A stretch of DNA of 64,000 nucleotides, taken from Rhodococcus oryzae. GTDB lineage: Bacteria > Actinomycetota > Actinomycetes > Mycobacteriales > Mycobacteriaceae. A model generated the notes under the pieces. That model saw only the letters and a program-made list of their open reading frames with translations. It was not told the DNA's origin and did no database searches. The stretch covers positions 248,001 to 312,000 of the forward strand of contig NZ_SUMD01000006.1 of NCBI RefSeq assembly GCF_005049235.1, written 5' to 3'. Made by a program: the position numbers and the translations under genes. This document shows, one piece after another, positions 53,090-61,868 of this stretch (its first letter is position 1; each line of letters begins with the position of its first letter).

Positions 53090-54304
53090 GTGAGGAGCCA
53101 GCCGCATGTGCTCGGAATCGTGCTCGCCGGAGGCGAAGGGAAACGTCTGTACCCCTTGACCGCTGACCGGGCCAAGCCGGCGGTGCCGTTCGGCGGGGCC
53201 TACCGCCTGATCGACTTCGTGCTCAGCAACCTGGTCAACGCCGGTTATCTCCGGATCTGTGTGCTGACCCAGTACAAGTCGCATTCCCTCGACCGCCACA
53301 TCTCGCAGACGTGGCGGCTGTCGGGTTTCGCGGGGGAGTACATCACCCCTGTCCCGGCGCAGCAGCGGCTCGGTCCGCGCTGGTACACCGGCAGCGCGGA
53401 CGCGATCTTCCAGTCACTCAACCTTGTCTACGACGAGGACCCCGAGTACATCGTGGTGTTCGGCGCCGACCACGTGTACCGGATGGATCCCGAGCAGATG
53501 GTCCAGCACCACATCGACTCGGGCGCGGGGGTCACCGTGGCCGGGATCCGGGTGCCGCGCAGCGAGGCGGTCGCGTTCGGCTGCATCGACAGCGACGAGT
53601 CGGGCCGGATCACCCAGTTCCTGGAGAAGCCGGCGCATCCGCCCGGCACCCCGGACGACCCGAACGTGACGTTCGCGTCGATGGGCAACTACGTGTTCAC
53701 CACGAAGGTGCTGGTGGACGCCATCCGCGCCGACTCGGAGAACTCGGACTCCGACCACGACATGGGCGGCGACATCATCCCCGCGCTGGTCGCCGCCGGG
53801 ATGGCCAATGTCTACGACTTCAAGGACAACGTGGTGCCCGGCGCCACCGACCGGGATCGCGGGTACTGGCGGGACGTCGGCACCCTCGACGCGTTCTACG
53901 AGGCACACATGGACCTGGTGTCCGTGCACCCGGTGTTCAATCTCTACAACCGGCGCTGGCCGATCCGCGGCGCGGCGGAGAACCTGGCGCCCGCCAAGTT
54001 CGTGCAGGGCGGGCTCGCCCAGGAGTCGGTGGTGGGCGCCGGCTGCATCCTGTCCGCCGCGACCGTGCGCAATTCCGTGCTCAGCTCCAACGTGATGGTC
54101 GACGACGGCGCCACCGTCGAGGGCAGCGTGTTGATGCCGGGCGTCCGCGTCGGCAAAGGCGCGGTGGTGCGGCACGCGATCCTGGACAAGAACGTGGTGG
54201 TCGGCGAGGGCGAGATCATCGGCGTCGACCTCGAGCGCGACCGGCAGCGCTTCGCGATCAGCCCCGGTGGCGTCGTCGCGATCGGCAAGGGTGTCTGGAT
54301 CTGA
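53090..54304 (+). CDS. glgC: Glucose-1-phosphate adenylyltransferase GlgC
   Basis: 404 residues. The nucleotidyltransferase start [25 protein letters not shown] is complete; [10 protein letters not shown] and EKPAHP hold metal- and sugar-binding residues; the C-terminal left-handed beta-helix carries the allosteric part. It makes ADP-glucose for glycogen and maltosyl pathways. GTG 53090; divergent from glgA with about 75 bp between starts. It is the last gene of the conserved block before the MreB/SEDS insertion. Confidence 0.95.
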
Positions 54305-54532: not shown

Positions 54533-55768
54533 ATGAGCGAAGCAGTGCTGGGGCTCTCCGTGAGCAGAAGCGAGCCGGCGCAACCCCGACCCGAGCCGGC
54601 ACAGCGAATCGACCATGACGCGCGCGGTGGTGTAGTTCTCCGCGGTCTGCTCGCGATTGCGACGTTGACACCGGCGCAGGCCGCGCTGCTCGTCACCGAT
54701 GTGATCGATCAGCTCGAGCTGGTGCGGAGCCGGGACGGCTACCCGACCCTCCGGGACCACGCGGTGAGGGTGTCCGACCGGGGACAGCTCGCGATCGATC
54801 GCACCGGGAGTGCGGCGTCCTGGCACGACGTGCGGGATGCGGTGGCGAGTTTGCTCCGAAGCATCGCGACGAACTGTCGTGATCACGCGCTCGCCGACCG
54901 GCTGGACGAATCGATCGCCCGAACAACAGATCTGGCCAACCTGGCGCACGGGGTTCGCGGCGCGGTCGCATCGGAGCTCGACCCGTCCACGGTGGGAAGG
55001 ACGCGGCGCCAGCTCGCGGAGCTCGTCTCGGCGACAAGGGGACGGGCGCTCGCGGCCGATCGGGTGGTGACGGACCGCGCGAACTCGCAGAGCCTGCCGG
55101 CCCCGGCGGCCGGATCGTCGCTCGCCCCGAAGGGCTGGTATCCGCCCATCGGGAATCCGTGGCATCGGAAACGGAGACGGCTGTCGCGTCGCCGGGGTGT
55201 ACTCGGCCTGCTGACGATCCTGTTGCTCGTCGGGGCAGTGTGGGCGGCGCCCGGTGCGTGGTCGGAGCTGCGCCGGGGCTGGGACACCGTTCTCCATCCG
55301 GTGAACCCGTCGGAGCAGAATCACATCAGTCCGGTCTCGCCGCCGCCACCGGCGCCCGAAGCCGACCAGGAGAACTCGCCGACCGCACAAGGAACCGCGG
55401 AGCCGGGTCCGGTCCATACCGGTCTTCCAGGCAGCGCGGGGCCGATCTCCCGGGTCACTGCCACCTTCGCCAACGGGGAATGCTCGACGGGACAACTGTG
55501 CACCATGCGGGTCGACGTCCACGTCGATCCCGCGGCGAACGTCGGCTCCGTGACCTGGCATGTGAGCGTGTACGAGCGATGCTCCGGAGCCGTCCATCCG
55601 GGCAATGACGTCACGATGCCGGTGCCGCCGGGTGGGCAGCAGGTGTACGGCATCGCCAGCGTCATCCTGCCGCGCGCCCCCGCGCTTGCTGTCGCCGGGC
55701 TGACCAGCGCCCCGGCCGCGGCCGCGTCGGAGCCGGCATTCGTGCCCGCCGAGAATGCAACCTGCTGA
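54533..55768 (+). CDS. Single-pass membrane protein of the SEDS-PBP/MreB locus, unknown
   Basis: 411 residues. A cytoplasmic, mainly helical N-terminal part (about 30-175) with LLAIATLTPAQAALLVTDVIDQLEL, a basic stretch (WHRKRRRLSRRRG), one TM helix (about 222-245), a long Pro-rich linker (PPPPAPEADQ), then an extracellular beta-like domain with Cys in NGECSTGQLCTM, YERCSG and the terminal C. Topology N-in/C-out. It ends 11 bp before the SEDS-PBP fusion gene, so both are co-expressed. No family recognised; the layout (cytoplasmic domain, TM, outer domain) recalls a RodZ- or MreC-like linker, but I see no sequence match. Confidence 0.7.
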   Translation: MSEAVLGLSVSRSEPAQPRPEPAQRIDHDARGGVVLRGLLAIATLTPAQAALLVTDVIDQLELVRSRDGYPTLRDHAVRVSDRGQLAIDRTGSAASWHDVRDAVASLLRSIATNCRDHALADRLDESIARTTDLANLAHGVRGAVASELDPSTVGRTRRQLAELVSATRGRALAADRVVTDRANSQSLPAPAAGSSLAPKGWYPPIGNPWHRKRRRLSRRRGVLGLLTILLLVGAVWAAPGAWSELRRGWDTVLHPVNPSEQNHISPVSPPPPAPEADQENSPTAQGTAEPGPVHTGLPGSAGPISRVTATFANGECSTGQLCTMRVDVHVDPAANVGSVTWHVSVYERCSGAVHPGNDVTMPVPPGGQQVYGIASVILPRAPALAVAGLTSAPAAAASEPAFVPAENATC

Positions 55769-55779
55769 GGCGTGGTCGC

Positions 55780-58605
55780 ATGCAGGCGCACCAGCGAGAA
55801 TCCGATCCCTGGCTCGTCGGGGCGGCGATCGCCCTCGTCGTTCTCGGCCTGCTCAACCTGATCTCGACGGGGAAGTCGACGGACGCCGTACGCCACGCAC
55901 TCTTCGCCGTCGTCGGCCTCGGTGCGATGTACGCGATCTCGCGCCTGCGGCCCAGCAACCTCCGACGATTCGGCTGGACGTTGTTCGCCGCCTCGGTCGT
56001 CCTGCTCGCGGCTGTGCCGCTCATCGGGGTCGCGACCAAGGGTGCCCAGCGCTGGCTGAACTTCGGCCTGTTCACCGTTCAACCCTCCGAGCTCGCCAAG
56101 TTGGCCCTGGTCCTGGTCCCCGCGGCGATATTGGCGGGTGGGTACACCCTCGGCCGGTTCGCGACGACCCTGCTGATCTCGAGTGTGCCGATCGGTCTCG
56201 TCGCGCTGCAGCCCGACCTGTCGACCGCCGTTGTGCTCGTGTCGACCGTGGTGATCATGCTGATCCTGGCCAGGGTTCCGCTGCTGCCGCTGTTACCGCT
56301 GTTCGCGCTCGGGATCGCTTCGTTGCCGCTGGCCGTGCTGTTTCTCAAGCCTTACCAGCTCGAGCGGATTCACGTGTTCCTGTCGAGCAATGCCGACACG
56401 CAGGGGTCGGGTTGGGCAGCGCTGCAGGCGGACATCGCGATCGGCAGCGGCGGATGGTTCGGTCTGGGTCGTGAACCGTTCTACGACCTGAGGGCCGAAT
56501 ACCTTCCGGAATCGGAGCACGACCTCGCCTTCGCGAGCCTGGTGTACGGATGGGGTCTGTTCGCAGGCCTGGCAGTCGTGATCGCCACGATGATCATCGT
56601 GTGGCGTTCTGCACTCGCCGCCCGAACGGCACGGACCCGGGAGGCCGCCCTCGTCGCAGCCGGGATCGGCGGGCTGTTCGGAGTGCAGGCCGTGGTCTCG
56701 ATCGCGGCGAGCCTGTCGCTCCTCCCACACACCGGCATGCCGATCCCCCTGTTCAGTTACGGGGGCACGGCCGCAATCCTCGGATTCGTCGCGGTCGGGC
56801 TGGTGCTCGCGATCCGTCGCGACGGCGTCGCGCGTCCCCTGTGGGCCACCGAGTCCAGACGGCGCCGCCTGCCCCGAGGAGTGTCGGCAGGCGCCGTCAC
56901 GGTCACTGCGATGCTCCTCGCGATGTCGGTGTTCGCGTGGCAGCTGCAGAGCGGCCGGGGTGTGGAACTGCGCACGATGAGCGACGGGCAGATGGAACGT
57001 TGCATCCGCCTGCCCGCCGAGCGGGGTCACATCCTCGACCGCAACGGCGAGCCGCTGGCGTACAACGTCCCCGAGTACGCCGTTGCGGTGGTTGCCCGAA
57101 TGTTCGACCGTGACGACGGGCCCGTGCGCGCCCAACTGGCCGCGCTGCTCGGCGTCACGCCGGAACAGCTGGCGGCGACCCTGGAGACCGGTGGCGAGGA
57201 GTTGGAGGTCGCTCTGGGACGGGTGACGCCCGAGCAGGCTCGGCGGATCGTGGACGCCCAGATCCCGTGGGTGCTCGTGTACCCGACCGGGCGCAGGCAC
57301 TACCCCGACGGAGCGTCGTCGGCATCCATCCTCGGGCACGTCGGGCTTGCCGACCCGCAGGACATGGAACGCTGGCCGCACCTCGCCCTCGGATCACGGG
57401 TCGGCAAAGCGGGACTCGAAAAGCAGTACGACGCGCTGCTCCGCGGCACCGACGGCAAGCAGTGCATGTACGTCGCTCCCTCCGGGCGCTTGGTGGCCAC
57501 CGGCGAGCGGGTGGACCCGGTGCGAGGACACGACCTGCGGTTGCACCTCGACATGGGGCTGCAGCGGCTCGCGACCGATGCGCTGACCGACGCGGTGCGC
57601 ACCAGTGGAGGCGACATGGGCGCGGCGATCGTGATGGACGCCCGCACCGGGGCGGTACTGACGCTGGCCAGCGTGCCCGGATTCGACAACAACCTCTACG
57701 GCCCCCCGGTCGACACGGTCGCGCTGGCGGCACAGACCGAGGGGCCCGGGCCGGGACGGATGCTCAACCACGCCGCCCAGTCCGCGGCACCGCCGGGCTC
57801 GGTCTTCAAGATCGTCGTCGCTGCGGCGAACGCGAAGTACAACGTGCTGTCGCCGGACGCCGTACTCGCAGGCGGTGCGGCATACACCTACGGAGGACAC
57901 ACATTCGCGAACTGGCAACCGATGGGACCGAACAGTTTGGTCGGCGCGCTCCAGTGGTCGGACAACGTCTACTTCTACCAACTCGCGGATCTCCTCGGCC
58001 CCGAACGAATAGCGGCGACCGCTACCGAGCTGGGTGTTGGCGAGGAATCGGGGATCGACCTGCCCGGCGAATCCGTGGGGTTCCTCGGCACACCGGAGAA
58101 CGTCGCCGACATCGGGGGAACCTGGTATCCCGGGTCGACGCTGCTGATGGGGATCGGTCAGGGCACCGTCAGCGCGACTCCGGTGCAGTTGGCGCGCTGG
58201 ACGTCGGGCATCGCCACCGGCTCGACGGTGACACCCCAGCTTGCGGCGGCGTATGGGCCGGACGCCTTACCCATTCCCACCGCGGAGCCCCGTCGGCTGT
58301 CCTTCGCGGACCAACTCGGCCCCGTGCGAGCGGGGATGCGGGCATCTGCCGCAGCCGGTACCGCAGGGCAGCTGGCCACCTTGCCGGTTGCGGCGGGTGC
58401 CAAGACGGGAACGGCGGAGGATCCGTCGGCGCCAGGGAAGGGTCTCAATGCCTGGTTCTCGGCGGTGGTGCCCTTCGACGCTCCGGAGATCGTGGTCTCG
58501 GTGCTGGTCCGTGGCGGTGGTTTCGGATCGGCGACGTCCGGGCCCGTTGCCAAGAAACTCCTCGAGCGTTACCTCGCGCAACCCCGGGCGGTGCCGAACC
58601 GCTGA
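55780..58605 (+). CDS. SEDS glycosyltransferase (RodA/FtsW) - class B PBP fusion
   Basis: 941 residues. Residues 1-360: a polytopic SEDS domain with GAQRWLNFG, QPSE (101-104), QPDLSTA, the ECL4 region LPESEHD with the catalytic-position Asp 248, and the SYGG motif (Tyr 327). Residues 368-390: a second TM anchor. Residues 408-941: class B PBP with ERGHILDRNG (415-423), catalytic S674-x-x-K677 (SVFK), S727-D-N and K875-T-G. So both peptidoglycan polymerase and transpeptidase motifs are intact in one chain. In most bacteria these are separate, interacting proteins (RodA-PBP2, or RodA-PbpA in mycobacteria). ATG 55780, 11 bp after the upstream gene; convergent with mreB. Confidence 0.92.
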   Translation: MQAHQRESDPWLVGAAIALVVLGLLNLISTGKSTDAVRHALFAVVGLGAMYAISRLRPSNLRRFGWTLFAASVVLLAAVPLIGVATKGAQRWLNFGLFTVQPSELAKLALVLVPAAILAGGYTLGRFATTLLISSVPIGLVALQPDLSTAVVLVSTVVIMLILARVPLLPLLPLFALGIASLPLAVLFLKPYQLERIHVFLSSNADTQGSGWAALQADIAIGSGGWFGLGREPFYDLRAEYLPESEHDLAFASLVYGWGLFAGLAVVIATMIIVWRSALAARTARTREAALVAAGIGGLFGVQAVVSIAASLSLLPHTGMPIPLFSYGGTAAILGFVAVGLVLAIRRDGVARPLWATESRRRRLPRGVSAGAVTVTAMLLAMSVFAWQLQSGRGVELRTMSDGQMERCIRLPAERGHILDRNGEPLAYNVPEYAVAVVARMFDRDDGPVRAQLAALLGVTPEQLAATLETGGEELEVALGRVTPEQARRIVDAQIPWVLVYPTGRRHYPDGASSASILGHVGLADPQDMERWPHLALGSRVGKAGLEKQYDALLRGTDGKQCMYVAPSGRLVATGERVDPVRGHDLRLHLDMGLQRLATDALTDAVRTSGGDMGAAIVMDARTGAVLTLASVPGFDNNLYGPPVDTVALAAQTEGPGPGRMLNHAAQSAAPPGSVFKIVVAAANAKYNVLSPDAVLAGGAAYTYGGHTFANWQPMGPNSLVGALQWSDNVYFYQLADLLGPERIAATATELGVGEESGIDLPGESVGFLGTPENVADIGGTWYPGSTLLMGIGQGTVSATPVQLARWTSGIATGSTVTPQLAAAYGPDALPIPTAEPRRLSFADQLGPVRAGMRASAAAGTAGQLATLPVAAGAKTGTAEDPSAPGKGLNAWFSAVVPFDAPEIVVSVLVRGGGFGSATSGPVAKKLLERYLAQPRAVPNR

Positions 58606-58651
58606 TCCCGTGCCCGCACGAGGCCATCGCCGTCGAGCGGATCAGGGCCGA

Positions 58652-59641
58652 TCAGTCGCTGTAGGCGGCAACCACTTCGGGGTGGTCGAGACACGCGGTC
58701 GCACCTTCGGCGACGCAGGTCAGCGGGCGCTCGGCCGTCTTCACAGGGAGCCCGAAGGACTCTTCGAGCAGCTGCGACAGGCCGCGTAGAAGCGACCCGC
58801 CGCCGAGCACCAGGAGCCCCTCCGACATCACGTCACCGATCGCCTGCGCGGGAATGTCCTCCAGACATTCGGCCAGTGTCTGCACGATCCCAATCGCGGT
58901 CGGCCGCAGCGCATCCACGATCTCCTCGGTCTCGAGTGTGACCAGCCGTGCCCGGCCGGTCACGGCGTCGCGGCCCTCGACGACGAGGGACTGCCCCTCG
59001 GAGGTCTCGGGCGCACCGACCTTCACTCGCTCGGCGGTGAGCTCGCCGACGATGATGTTGTGCTCGGTCCGCAGGTAGTGAGACAGCGCGTTGGTCAGTT
59101 CATCCCCCGCCAGTCGGCAACTGCGATGCGAGAGCATGCCACCGAAACAGAATGCCGTGACTTCCGAAGTGCCGCCGCCGATATCGACGACAAGGTGGGC
59201 GCGGGGTTCGAGTGGGTTGATCCCGCAGCCGAGTGCCCCAGCGACCGGCTCCGGGATCAACCCGACCTTGCGCAGGCCGGCCTCGTGTCCGACCTCGAGT
59301 AGTGCCCGTCGCTCGAGAGAGGTGGCGCCCGCAGGAACAGAGAAGACCCCCTTCGGCCGCAGACCGTAGTGTCTGCTCGGGGCCGCGCGTTTGATGACGG
59401 CCGTGACGAATGCCCTGGCCGACTCGAGGTCGACGATCACCCCATCGCGCATCGGACGAACGGGCGTGACTCCCACGGGATTGCGGCCGACCAGGTCGCG
59501 CGCGTCGATGCCGATCGAGAGAGCGTGGTGCGGATCTTTTTCTCGAACGAGCATGAACGATGGCTCGTTCAGGACGATGCCGTCTTCGGGGGTGCCGACG
59601 ACAGTATTGGTGGTTCCGAGATCGATACCAAGTCCGCTCAC
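58652..59641 (-). CDS. mreB: MreB/Mbl actin homologue
   Basis: 329 residues from GTG 59641, chosen because GGAGG lies five bases upstream and the length equals normal MreB; longer in-frame starts (to 59749) add a non-conserved part. Actin-fold motifs: D7LGTTNT13 (phosphate 1), VGRNPVGVTPVRPMRDGVI, IPEPVAGALGCG with the catalytic-side Glu, VVDIGGGTSEV (phosphate 2), GELTAERVK, LVLGGGSLLRG and ERPLTCVAEGA. MreB filaments guide RodA-PBP2 in lateral wall growth. Its gene is convergent with the SEDS-PBP fusion and lies downstream of whiB on the same strand. MreB is usually considered missing from mycolata. Confidence 0.93.
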   Translation of the reverse strand: MSGLGIDLGTTNTVVGTPEDGIVLNEPSFMLVREKDPHHALSIGIDARDLVGRNPVGVTPVRPMRDGVIVDLESARAFVTAVIKRAAPSRHYGLRPKGVFSVPAGATSLERRALLEVGHEAGLRKVGLIPEPVAGALGCGINPLEPRAHLVVDIGGGTSEVTAFCFGGMLSHRSCRLAGDELTNALSHYLRTEHNIIVGELTAERVKVGAPETSEGQSLVVEGRDAVTGRARLVTLETEEIVDALRPTAIGIVQTLAECLEDIPAQAIGDVMSEGLLVLGGGSLLRGLSQLLEESFGLPVKTAERPLTCVAEGATACLDHPEVVAAYSD

Positions 59642-59786
59642 GTCGGCCTCCGAGAGGTGTTCCAGCGAGATGGTTTGATCGTACGCAGCGGCTCCGGCGT
59701 TCGGTCGATATCGCGCTGACTCGCCAAAGATCTCGCGAATCTGTCCCAACCCGGTGGCGTCGTCGCAGTCGGCAAGGCGCCCGGAT

Positions 59787-60140
59787 CTAGCCGGCGGTCG
59801 CGCGCACCGGCTCGGTGGACCTCATCAGCTCGGCCCACGACTCGACGTTCGGGTGGCGCTTGAGCAGCGCCCGGCGCTGACGCTCGGTCATCCCGCCCCA
59901 GACACCGAACTCGACGCGGTTGTCGAGGGCCTCGGCGCCGCACTGGACGATGACAGGGCACCGGCGGCACGCGGCGGCCGCCTCGCGTTGGGCGGCGCCG
60001 CGCACGAACATCTGATCGGGGTGCTCGGCGCGGCACAGCGCGCGCTCCACCCAGGTGTGTGGCAGGGCGAGGCGCGGGTAGTCGCAGCCGGCGGGGGCGG
60101 AGCCCCCCGACTCCGATCGGGAGCGGTCTGAGCAGATCAC
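59787..60140 (-). CDS. whiB4: WhiB4-like Fe-S transcriptional regulator
   Basis: 117 residues. Cys 36, 58, 61 and 67 (ALCRAEHPDQMF, CRRCPVIVQC) bind the 4Fe-4S cluster; GVWGGMTERQRRALLKRHP is the G-V-W-G-G turn plus the basic DNA-contacting end. The middle (DQMFVRGAAQREAA) is nearly the same as in M. tuberculosis WhiB4, which senses O2/redox state and controls oxidative-stress genes. Two extra Cys (3, 19) lie in the variable N-terminus. GTG 60140 has GAGG four bases upstream. It is 145 bp before mreB on the same strand. Confidence 0.9.
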   Translation of the reverse strand: MICSDRSRSESGGSAPAGCDYPRLALPHTWVERALCRAEHPDQMFVRGAAQREAAAACRRCPVIVQCGAEALDNRVEFGVWGGMTERQRRALLKRHPNVESWAELMRSTEPVRATAG

Positions 60141-60224: not shown

Positions 60225-61868
60225 CTACCGGATGTCGCGCCGTCGGAACGCGATCAGGCCGCCGACGAGCAGCGCCGCATCGATCGCCAGGAGCCACACG
60301 ATCGGGGTGGCCTCGAATTCCGCGCCGGGCAACTTGGGTGTGTGGCTGAAGGGCTGGAGGTCGAGTACCCACTGCGGGACGCCGGAGATGGAGCCGAGCA
60401 GGAACAGGGCGACGAACGTCACAAGCACGCCCCACGCCACCGGGGTGAAACGCGGAACCAGTCCGAACAGCAGCACCGTCACGGCCGTCAGCATCCAGAC
60501 CGCGGGCAGCTGCACGAGCCCGGTGGCCAGCACCCCGGGTAGCTTCCCTCCGATATCGCCCGCCGCGATTCCGTAGGTCACCCCGGCCACCAGCCCGGCG
60601 GCGAGCAGGGCGACGGCAGGGCCCGCGATGGCGAAGACGATATGGCTTGCGGCCCATCGGATCCGGCCGACCGCACCGGAGGTCACGGACTCGGCGCGCT
60701 GCGCGGTCTCCTCGCCGTGGAGTCGCAGCGCCGAGGAGATCGCAAGCGCCGCTGCGCCGACGGCGAGCATGGTGAATGCGATCGTGATGAACGCGTCCTC
60801 GAGTGCCTGCGTTCCGCCGATCCGGCTGACGATCTCCCGGATCGCGTCGCCGCCGCCGAGCTCGTCGCCGATCCCGTGTACGACGCTTCCGATCAGCAGG
60901 GCGTACAGGCTGATCCCGAGGGTCCATGCGATCAGCGTGCCGCGCTGCAGCCGCCAGGACAGGCCGAACGGGCCGCTCAGCGACCGCGCCGCCATTGGCG
61001 GGCCCAGACGCTCGGCGATCACCCCCGCGCCGACATCCCGCCTGCGCAGCAGTGCATAGGCCGACGCGGTGAGCACGATCGCCGTGGTCAGGTGCAGCAG
61101 GAGCACCCACCAGCGGTCACCCGCGTACGGGCGCACCTGCAGCGACCAGCCGAGCGGCGACAGCCAGGACAGAGCGGCCGCGCCTGCGTCGCCGACGGCA
61201 CGGAGCGCGAAGGCCGTTCCCAGCACGGCAAAGGCGATGCCGCGGGCGGTGCGGGCGCTGGTGCTCAGCTGCGCCGCGACGGCGGCGACCGCGGTGAACA
61301 CGATCCCGGATGCCGCCAGCGCGAGCCCGAACGCGATCGAGCCCGCGCGTGGCACGTCGGTGCCGAGCAGTCCCACCGCGCCGATCAGCCCGGTCGCGAT
61401 CGACGCGCCGAAGGCGACCAGCAACGCGGCGGTCAGTCCCGCGTACCGGCCGACGACGGTCGAATCGAGCAGCTCCGTCCGACCGCTCTCCTCCTCCGCC
61501 CGGGTGTGCCGGATGACGGTGAGGATCACCGCGATGGCGATCAGCGTGTAGAACATCCCGGCTTTCCAGATGCCGACGGCGCCCAGGCTGTCGTTGTAGA
61601 TCTCGCCGTACATGGCGCGTTGCGCCGGGCTTCCCACGATGGTGGCCGCGAAGGCCGCCCGGTCGGCCTCGCTGGGGTAGATGCTCTCGATGCTGCCCAT
61701 GTAGACGGGCGCCAGTGGCAGCGAGAGGAGCAGCACCCACAGCGGCAGCACGATCCGGTCCCGCCGTAGGAAGAGCCGGACGAAGCCGAGGGTGCCGGTG
61801 AAATTCGATGTCCCGCGCGGGACCGCCGCGGCCGGATGCCGGGGGCCCGCGACCGTCGCGGTGCTCAT
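60225..61868 (-). CDS. ABC exporter permease (Rv1217c-like)
   Basis: 547 residues with two bundles of about six TM segments each, the tetronasin-type exporter architecture of Rv1217c. Long polar loops near residues 60-100 ([20 protein letters not shown]) and 330-360. It pairs with the ATP-binding gene upstream (4-bp overlap). Likely exports a hydrophobic compound or antibiotic. ATG 61868. Order permease - ATPase - TetR - methyltransferase equals Rv1217c-Rv1220c. Confidence 0.9.

Follow-up and report, generated by a model that had tools for sequence, protein, structure and literature searches.

The stretch of DNA analysed here (the window, 64,000 nucleotides) belongs to contig NZ_SUMD01000006.1 (C28) of Rhodococcus oryzae, whose genome has a size of 5.37 Mb (G000). 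Towards its right end the window contains three genes, coding for an unnamed membrane protein, a single-chain fusion of a RodA-type glycan polymerase of the SEDS (shape, elongation, division and sporulation) family with a PBP2-type penicillin-binding protein (PBP), and a divergent MreB actin. These genes form a conserved module, which is found at different sites in different genera. The features of the module are the following:

54533-55768, plus strand: unnamed membrane protein of 411 residues, from its open reading frame and hydropathy
55780-58605, plus strand: RodA-PBP2 fusion of 941 residues, from Pfam, NCBIfam, solved relatives and catalytic residues
56815-56898, plus strand: linker of the fusion (residues 346-373), which joins the SEDS and PBP halves and is a putative contact site of MreB
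58652-59641, minus strand: divergent MreB of 329 residues (PF06723, E-value 8.5e-90), convergent to the fusion gene

The single-pass membrane protein, the RodA/FtsW-PBP fusion and the MreB proposed in the initial annotation are all present at these positions. The fusion gene starts 11 bases past the membrane-protein gene. For MreB the family assignment stands, while the start codon was revised from TTG at 59749 to GTG at 59641. The latter is the most likely start because a GGAGG sequence is seen by eye just upstream and the nearest start is placed there in many relatives. The closest named relative at the locus is Rhodococcus maanshanensis, whose fusion protein is 93% identical.

The occurrence of the genes was determined in a family sample of 201 genomes from 31 genera, with cut-offs of E <= 1e-50 for MreB and E <= 1e-100 for the fusion. 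Both proteins were found in the identical 38 genomes, representing 6 genera; the number 38 counts species and not independent events. In all 38 loci the membrane-protein gene is located 5' of the fusion gene on the same strand, and the convergent MreB gene adjoins the fusion gene. In view of this shared distribution and of the adjacency of the two genes in every carrier of the family, the pairing of MreB and fusion cannot be attributed to chance. The match to the fusion is only partial in one family carrier of low genome quality (G192). In wider samples, the fusion was detected at E <= 1e-80 in 12 of 298 genomes of the order and in 6 of 394 genomes of the class. Fifteen new carriers from other families (f2, f14, f16, f34 and f41) were obtained, with fusion identities of 47-54%, giving a total of 53 carriers together with the 38 of the family. 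The profile of the membrane protein matches 14 of these 15 loci (E from 2e-18 to 1e-81) and MreB matches 14 as well; the two misses (L095 and L094) are at contig ends. At one other-family locus (L097, genome G394) the module MreB is encoded in two separate frames at a distance of about 7 kb from the fusion, which may reflect a sequencing error or a loss in progress.

A separate scan of named Rhodococcus and Prescottella genomes gave 20 loci, of which one (L125, a weak match of 84 residues) was excluded. All three genes are present in the remaining 19, glgC in 2 and a whiB gene in 1. These named loci are mostly genomes of the family sample under their names, and the scan, for which one protein was used, extends no further than close relatives. 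The genes are thus linked in relatives and in other families and not scattered, in agreement with the linkage that the initial annotation had suggested.

Apart from the three genes, direct homologues of any one reading frame were seen at 12 of the 53 loci at most (flank comparison without chaining, module frames removed), and the flanks of the chromosomal module vary between genera. The protein distances of the three genes correlate with coefficients of 0.88 to 0.96 over 49 loci (L073, L094, L095 and L097 left out), a level reached in none of 999 permutations. This correlation is expected for a unit that travels together, and also for plain shared descent. The ratios of nonsynonymous to synonymous substitution (dN/dS) against R. 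maanshanensis are 0.12 for MreB, 0.14 for the fusion and 0.35 for the membrane protein, which indicates purifying selection on the module; the values for the adjacent whiB and glgC genes are 0.32 and 0.02.

The fusion consists of a SEDS glycan polymerase, a short cytoplasmic linker and a class B penicillin-binding protein, and is matched by PF01098 (7.2e-64), PF03717 (1e-28) and PF00905 (8e-47). Its halves are nearest to RodA and PBP2, not to FtsW and FtsI. The solved relatives are RodA and PBP2 too, and the nearest NCBIfam models are rodA_shape (245.9 bits, cut-off 336.7) and pbp2_mrdA (377.9 bits, cut-off 455). Residues were counted in 55 fusion pieces from the 53 loci, with gaps set aside. 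The SEDS aspartate is present in 52 of 53 fusions, the transpeptidase serine and lysine in 53 of 53 and the lysine of the KTG motif in 52 of 52. The asparagine position of the SxN motif is occupied by Asn in 43 and by Asp in 10 of the 53. Judged from the alignment, the active-site residues of both halves are conserved.

The linker, measured from the last SEDS helix to the PBP helix, does not vary in length among 48 of the 51 full-length fusions, and the other 3 have a single additional residue; pieces under 850 residues were left out, so that 51 of the 55 were kept. Residues L354, W355 and R366 are found in all 51, and P365 in 50. The accessible text of a study of Escherichia coli (PMC13327600) reports that MreB binds both the C-terminal tail of RodA and the cytoplasmic N-terminus of PBP2, and that MreB together with an activated RodA-PBP2 works in part without MreCD and RodZ. 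These two MreB-binding ends are joined by the linker in the fusion, and by analogy we infer that the linker may be the contact site of MreB. An artificial RodA-PBP2 fusion of the same order largely restores the rod shape of E. coli, as described in the available part of PMC6207328.

In phylogenetic trees the SEDS half forms one group with support of 100/100, and the PBP half forms one group with an SH-aLRT value of 100 in a quick tree. For the sister canonical group of the fusion halves the tree gives no resolution, as long branches meet there. Against the fusion profile, the RodA and PbpA of the host score 58.6 and 91.8 bits, while two RodA-PBP2 pairs from mre clusters score about 159 and 147-157 bits. 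These scores do not favour an origin of the fusion by simple copying of the host rodA-pbpA pair, which was considered, and the tree leaves the sister group of the fusion undecided.

The MreB of the module is also matched by solved MreBs at 1e-71 and is the only MreB above 70 bits in its own genome. The other MreB-like matches in that genome (69.5, 31 and 29.9 bits) were taken to be Hsp70-like proteins because they score low and have long frames. In a tree of 24 module MreBs, 19 MreBs from mre clusters and the E. coli MreB, a single branch isolates the module proteins (100/100), and the E. coli protein groups with the canonical mre-cluster MreBs. After seven second actinobacterial MreBs were added, the module MreB was still separate (bootstrap not settled). 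The carriers in the trees were chosen by hand for spread, 24 of the 53 for the fusion halves and the first MreB tree and 20 for the last MreB tree (L054, L096, L097 and L098 left out). A very divergent second MreB of a large actinobacterial genome (L193, genome G586; 262.7 bits) has a long branch and groups loosely with the other second MreBs, apart from the module. A phage family of unknown function (phrog_22570, a profile of 682 positions) matches the module MreB at 1.8e-45. The suggestion that this MreB is devoid of any membrane loop was dropped because the region still contains aromatic and basic residues.

The nucleotide site can be compared with that of Spiroplasma MreB5, for which the available portion of PMC9195046 assigns the magnesium sphere to Asp12, Glu134 and Asp156 and places Glu134 and Thr161 next to the catalytic water. 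The MreB of the window keeps the equivalents of Asp12, Glu134 and Asp156 and the phosphate-1 aspartate, and the latter is kept in 52 of 52 MreBs. Ser or Asn replaces the equivalent of Asp156 in 15 of the 38 family MreBs, and the equivalent of Glu134 is changed in 7, with both lost in five. The substitutions include all 12 MreBs of genus g10, the genus of Prescottella equi, P. agglutinans and P. defluvii (L043, L048, L051, L054, L056, L058, L061, L065, L067, L069, L071 and L073); in these the Asp of the DIGGGT motif is replaced by Ser or Asn, and five (L056, L065, L069, L071 and L073) are also without the catalytic Glu. The MreBs of the other families, 14 in number, all have the Asp, and 10 of them have the Glu. 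Nucleotide binding by these MreBs is probably retained, and hydrolysis appears doubtful in some lineages.

The membrane protein has one strong hydrophobic segment at about residues 221-242 and a weaker one near residue 40 (hydropathy of 2.15 and 1.63, respectively). Basic residues precede the strong segment and a proline-rich stretch follows it. From these basic residues the N-terminal part is presumed to be cytoplasmic. The exported part contains four invariant cysteines in alignments of 20 and 38 members. In R. triatomae (L041 / L119) the protein has 287 residues and matches only from residue 189, its N-terminal part being divergent or short. No Pfam match with an E-value below 0.05 was found for 20 members, the best value being 0.057, and this includes the absence of a helix-turn-helix or RodZ domain match. 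The layout of a cytoplasmic part, one helix, a proline-rich linker and an exported part is similar to that of RodZ, which is a resemblance and not homology. Three other candidates were rejected. The best match in the PDB, which would make the protein a relative of TolA, has an E-value of 0.3 and was judged to be chance. The comparison with 14 MreC proteins gave an hhalign probability of 2.3 over 30 columns. Finally, the SepX/GlpR model was matched in only 1 of 20 members, with 16 bits against a cut-off of 110.

The genome of R. oryzae contains the ordinary wall machinery besides the module. Its SEDS proteins are FtsW (374 bits), RodA (287 bits) and the fusion (219.5 bits). FtsZ and DivIVA are encoded near FtsW, the DivIVA being presumably Wag31 by its likeness to that protein, and a PBP with a PBP_dimer_2 domain (PbpA) follows RodA. 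The order of the host rodA-pbpA pair, SEDS first and PBP second, is that of the fusion. However, the pair is made of two genes and has a low score with the fusion profile, and its PBP differs from the PBP half of the fusion, which has a PBP_dimer domain and is nearest to PBP2/MrdA. Since the host keeps FtsW, RodA-PbpA, FtsZ and DivIVA/Wag31, the module is additional to them. The accessory character of the MreB and SEDS-PBP set that the initial annotation had proposed is thereby upheld, and the alternative that this is simply the only RodA/PBP set of the organism fails.

Partners of the known Rod complex are missing from most of the carriers searched for MreC and for the RodZ-type helix-turn-helix. 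MreC (PF04085) was not found in the genome of R. oryzae, in 49 of the 53 carriers or in the same-genus genome G021, by a search that was positive in 8 of 14 control genomes; in a sample of 197 genomes of the class, 141 have MreC. The four carriers with MreC are G329, G356, G591 and G800. Three of these (G329, G591 and G800) have a canonical MreB (466-507 bits) besides the MreB of the module (272-295 bits), and the fourth, G356, which is 63% complete, has one MreB. The RodZ-type helix-turn-helix (PF13413) was searched in 45 genomes, 35 of them carriers. No match was found at E <= 1e-5 in the genome of R. oryzae, and a strong match was found in none of the 33 MreC-less carriers scanned and not in G021, the best being 32.8 bits over half of the model. 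Strong matches (62.8-81.1 bits) were obtained in 10 of 11 genomes with MreC, namely both MreC carriers and 8 of 9 others. Compared with the Rod complex (MreB-MreC-MreD-RodZ-RodA-PBP2), the module likewise encodes a homologous MreB, a RodA-type SEDS protein and a PBP2-type crosslinker together. It differs by the union of RodA and PBP2 in one polypeptide, by the extra membrane protein, by an MreB of a separate clade and by these missing partners.

The neighbouring features of the module in the window are the following:

53090-54304, plus strand: glgC, at the left flank of the insertion (NCBIfam glgC and Pfam)
59787-60140, minus strand: WhiB (PF02467, 3.4e-21), a local neighbour outside the conserved module
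60225-61859, minus strand: hydrophobic protein, by position an ATP-binding cassette (ABC) permease; the upper limit is that of the translated stretch and not a start codon
61865-63289, minus strand: ABC ATPase (Pfam), adjoining the putative permease

The frame of the putative permease has no Pfam or NCBIfam match. The initial annotation had described four genes inserted between glgC and the ABC genes, with a WhiB4-like protein as a possible regulator. The position of glgC on the left flank is correct, and the three genes described above are linked in all 38 family carriers. However, a whiB gene is near the module in only 2 of the 38 family loci and glgC in 3, so WhiB was rejected as a part of the module and is not supported as its regulator, and the glgC site was rejected as its general home. 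The module and glgC adjoin also in R. triatomae (L041 / L119).

The regions of glgC were fetched from seven relatives. In four of these (G021, G064, G095 and G026) glgC is followed directly by a homologue of the permease, without WhiB or the module. G021 belongs to the same genus (g1), has neither MreB nor the fusion, and could serve as a natural contrast strain; in G064 and G095 of the same genus and in G026 of another genus the module is on another contig. No permease match was found within the fetched glgC stretch of G009, G023 and G024, and an eighth relative (G027) has no glgC match. In the window, the module and WhiB thus occupy together a junction that these relatives have closed, and in most carriers the module is found elsewhere. 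The insertion at the glgC-ABC junction holds for the source species group, and both WhiB and the glgC location are incidental to the module. A defence or phage origin was rejected, as PADLOC has no match for the membrane protein, fusion, MreB or WhiB and no PHROGs family matches the membrane protein or the fusion.

Full-length fusions with catalytic motifs were also found on three Rhodococcus plasmids among 72,556 plasmid records. These are plasmids of 299-354 kb from R. pseudokoreensis, R. sp. WAY2 and R. oxybenzonivorans (L194, L195 and L196). A decayed membrane-protein gene is kept at one of these loci, and no trace of it is seen nearby at the other two. The role of possible linker, which the initial annotation gave to the membrane protein, is supported by the occurrence of its gene at all 38 family loci and at 14 of the 15 loci of other families, where the single exception lies at a contig end; the plasmids speak against it. 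Genes related to metals (arsenic, copper and zinc transport) lie near the plasmid fusions.

The gene content suggests, as a rather probable reading, that the module is a natural minimal version of the Rod complex, encoding a compact peptidoglycan synthase of the Rod type that is accessory to the ordinary set. Polymers of MreB at the membrane would hold the synthase by means of the short linker of nearly fixed length. The membrane protein would reach from the cytoplasm to the wall, doing the work of RodZ, MreC or both. Wall synthesis by the module may take place at non-polar sites, or accompany a change of shape, in parallel to the polar growth directed by DivIVA. The minimal elongasome of E. 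coli (PMC13327600, available in part) would be similar in that MreB and RodA-PBP2 suffice, with the natural linker of the fusion joining both MreB-binding ends. That system was obtained by laboratory mutations, whereas the module occurs and is conserved in nature, with its synthase fused and a third protein added.

Several observations weigh against a minimal Rod complex. There is no MreB match within the fetched 23 kb around the three plasmid fusions, so the fusion may work without MreB; these cases show that the genes reach plasmids, and they weaken the idea of a fusion that is always dependent on its partners. The MreB gene is convergent and hence is not in one transcript with the fusion and the membrane protein. 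One of the two NCBIfam models for MreB scores below its cut-off, and both fusion halves are below the curated equivalog cut-offs given above. The loss of magnesium-binding carboxylates in the g10 MreBs fits a dynamic filament badly. The mean column entropy of the linker is 1.24, no lower than that of other parts (0.91-1.30), and only its length and its invariant residues stand out. G021, a member of the genus, lives without the module. The evidence for missing partners covers MreC, plus the RodZ helix-turn-helix in 35 of 53 carriers, and MreD was not searched. The support as a whole is genomic.

Rhodococci have a rod-coccus cycle, and the module might remodel or thicken the wall of resting or coccoid cells during the change from rod to coccus, instead of serving elongation. 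Such a role would be like that of MreB in the spore wall of Streptomyces, where the actin homologues are dispensable for growth and needed for spores according to the available text of PMC3989709 and PMC4255298. The Streptomyces mre cluster also combines an actinobacterial MreB with SEDS and PBP2 genes, in addition to the tip growth led by DivIVA. That the module is extra to a full polar set and is absent in G021 fits a stage-specific role of this kind. However, the Streptomyces cluster has separate pbp2-rodA genes together with MreC, and its MreBs (with G481-like genomes taken as Streptomyces) are in other clades, the module clade being apart from both the mre-cluster and the second actinobacterial MreBs. 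We consider this reading rather unlikely.

The plasmid fusions would also be explained if the fusion were a spare synthase acting on its own, kept and moved by plasmids and serving, for instance, under envelope or antibiotic stress, with MreB and the membrane protein as dispensable companions. Their intact catalytic motifs, the lack of MreB, the decayed or absent membrane-protein gene and the nearby metal-related genes agree with this, as do the different chromosomal flanks between genera. This explanation is nevertheless improbable, since MreB and the membrane protein are kept in all 38 family loci and elsewhere as far as the contigs allow, and purifying selection is stronger on MreB than on the membrane protein. 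A rearranged remnant of an ordinary actinobacterial mre cluster, with worn parts and no distinct design, would account for the homology of all catalytic and filament parts with those of the Rod complex, and for two mre-cluster pairs scoring above host RodA and PbpA with the fusion profile. However, in all 18 canonical stretches in which both genes were found the order is pbp2-rodA, opposite to that of the fusion. In addition, fully supported branches separate the SEDS, PBP and MreB parts from all their canonical counterparts, and G329, G591 and G800 carry canonical and module MreBs together. A remnant is therefore very improbable.

Beyond the minimal Rod complex as such, it is conceivable, and proposed here only tentatively, that the module represents a separate class of MreB-guided synthase. 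Such a class would have arisen by one ancient RodA-PBP2 fusion event and would be characterized by a distinct MreB clade and by an unrelated membrane protein in place of MreC/RodZ, kept across several actinobacterial families at different sites. The MreB of g10 (Prescottella), which is without carboxylates for holding magnesium or activating water, might then guide synthesis as a scaffold that binds nucleotide but does not turn it over.

SEDS-PBP fusions encoded in a single reading frame are already in print; the available part of PMC10449877 reports that they exist and cites the genome of Rhodococcus jostii RHA1, whose fusion probably belongs to the same family as that of the module. MreB, the membrane protein, conservation and function are not mentioned in that part of the text. 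No description of the three-gene module appears in the titles or abstract starts of the papers that searches of the open-licence PMC literature listed. The module also exposes a conserved family of membrane proteins that lacks a Pfam name.

The group of bacteria that includes Rhodococcus is generally described as growing at the tips of the cell and as lacking MreB. Many Rhodococcus and Prescottella genomes nevertheless keep an MreB, together with a fused synthase of its own and in the absence of MreC. To judge from its proteins, the three-gene set looks like a pared-down version of the machine that builds the side wall in other bacteria. It offers a natural test of what a minimal Rod complex needs and of how MreB would hold RodA-PBP2 through the linker. 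The MreBs of g10 may be examples of ATPase-poor MreBs in nature. The module would also make it possible to test whether two growth geometries coexist in one tip-growing cell.

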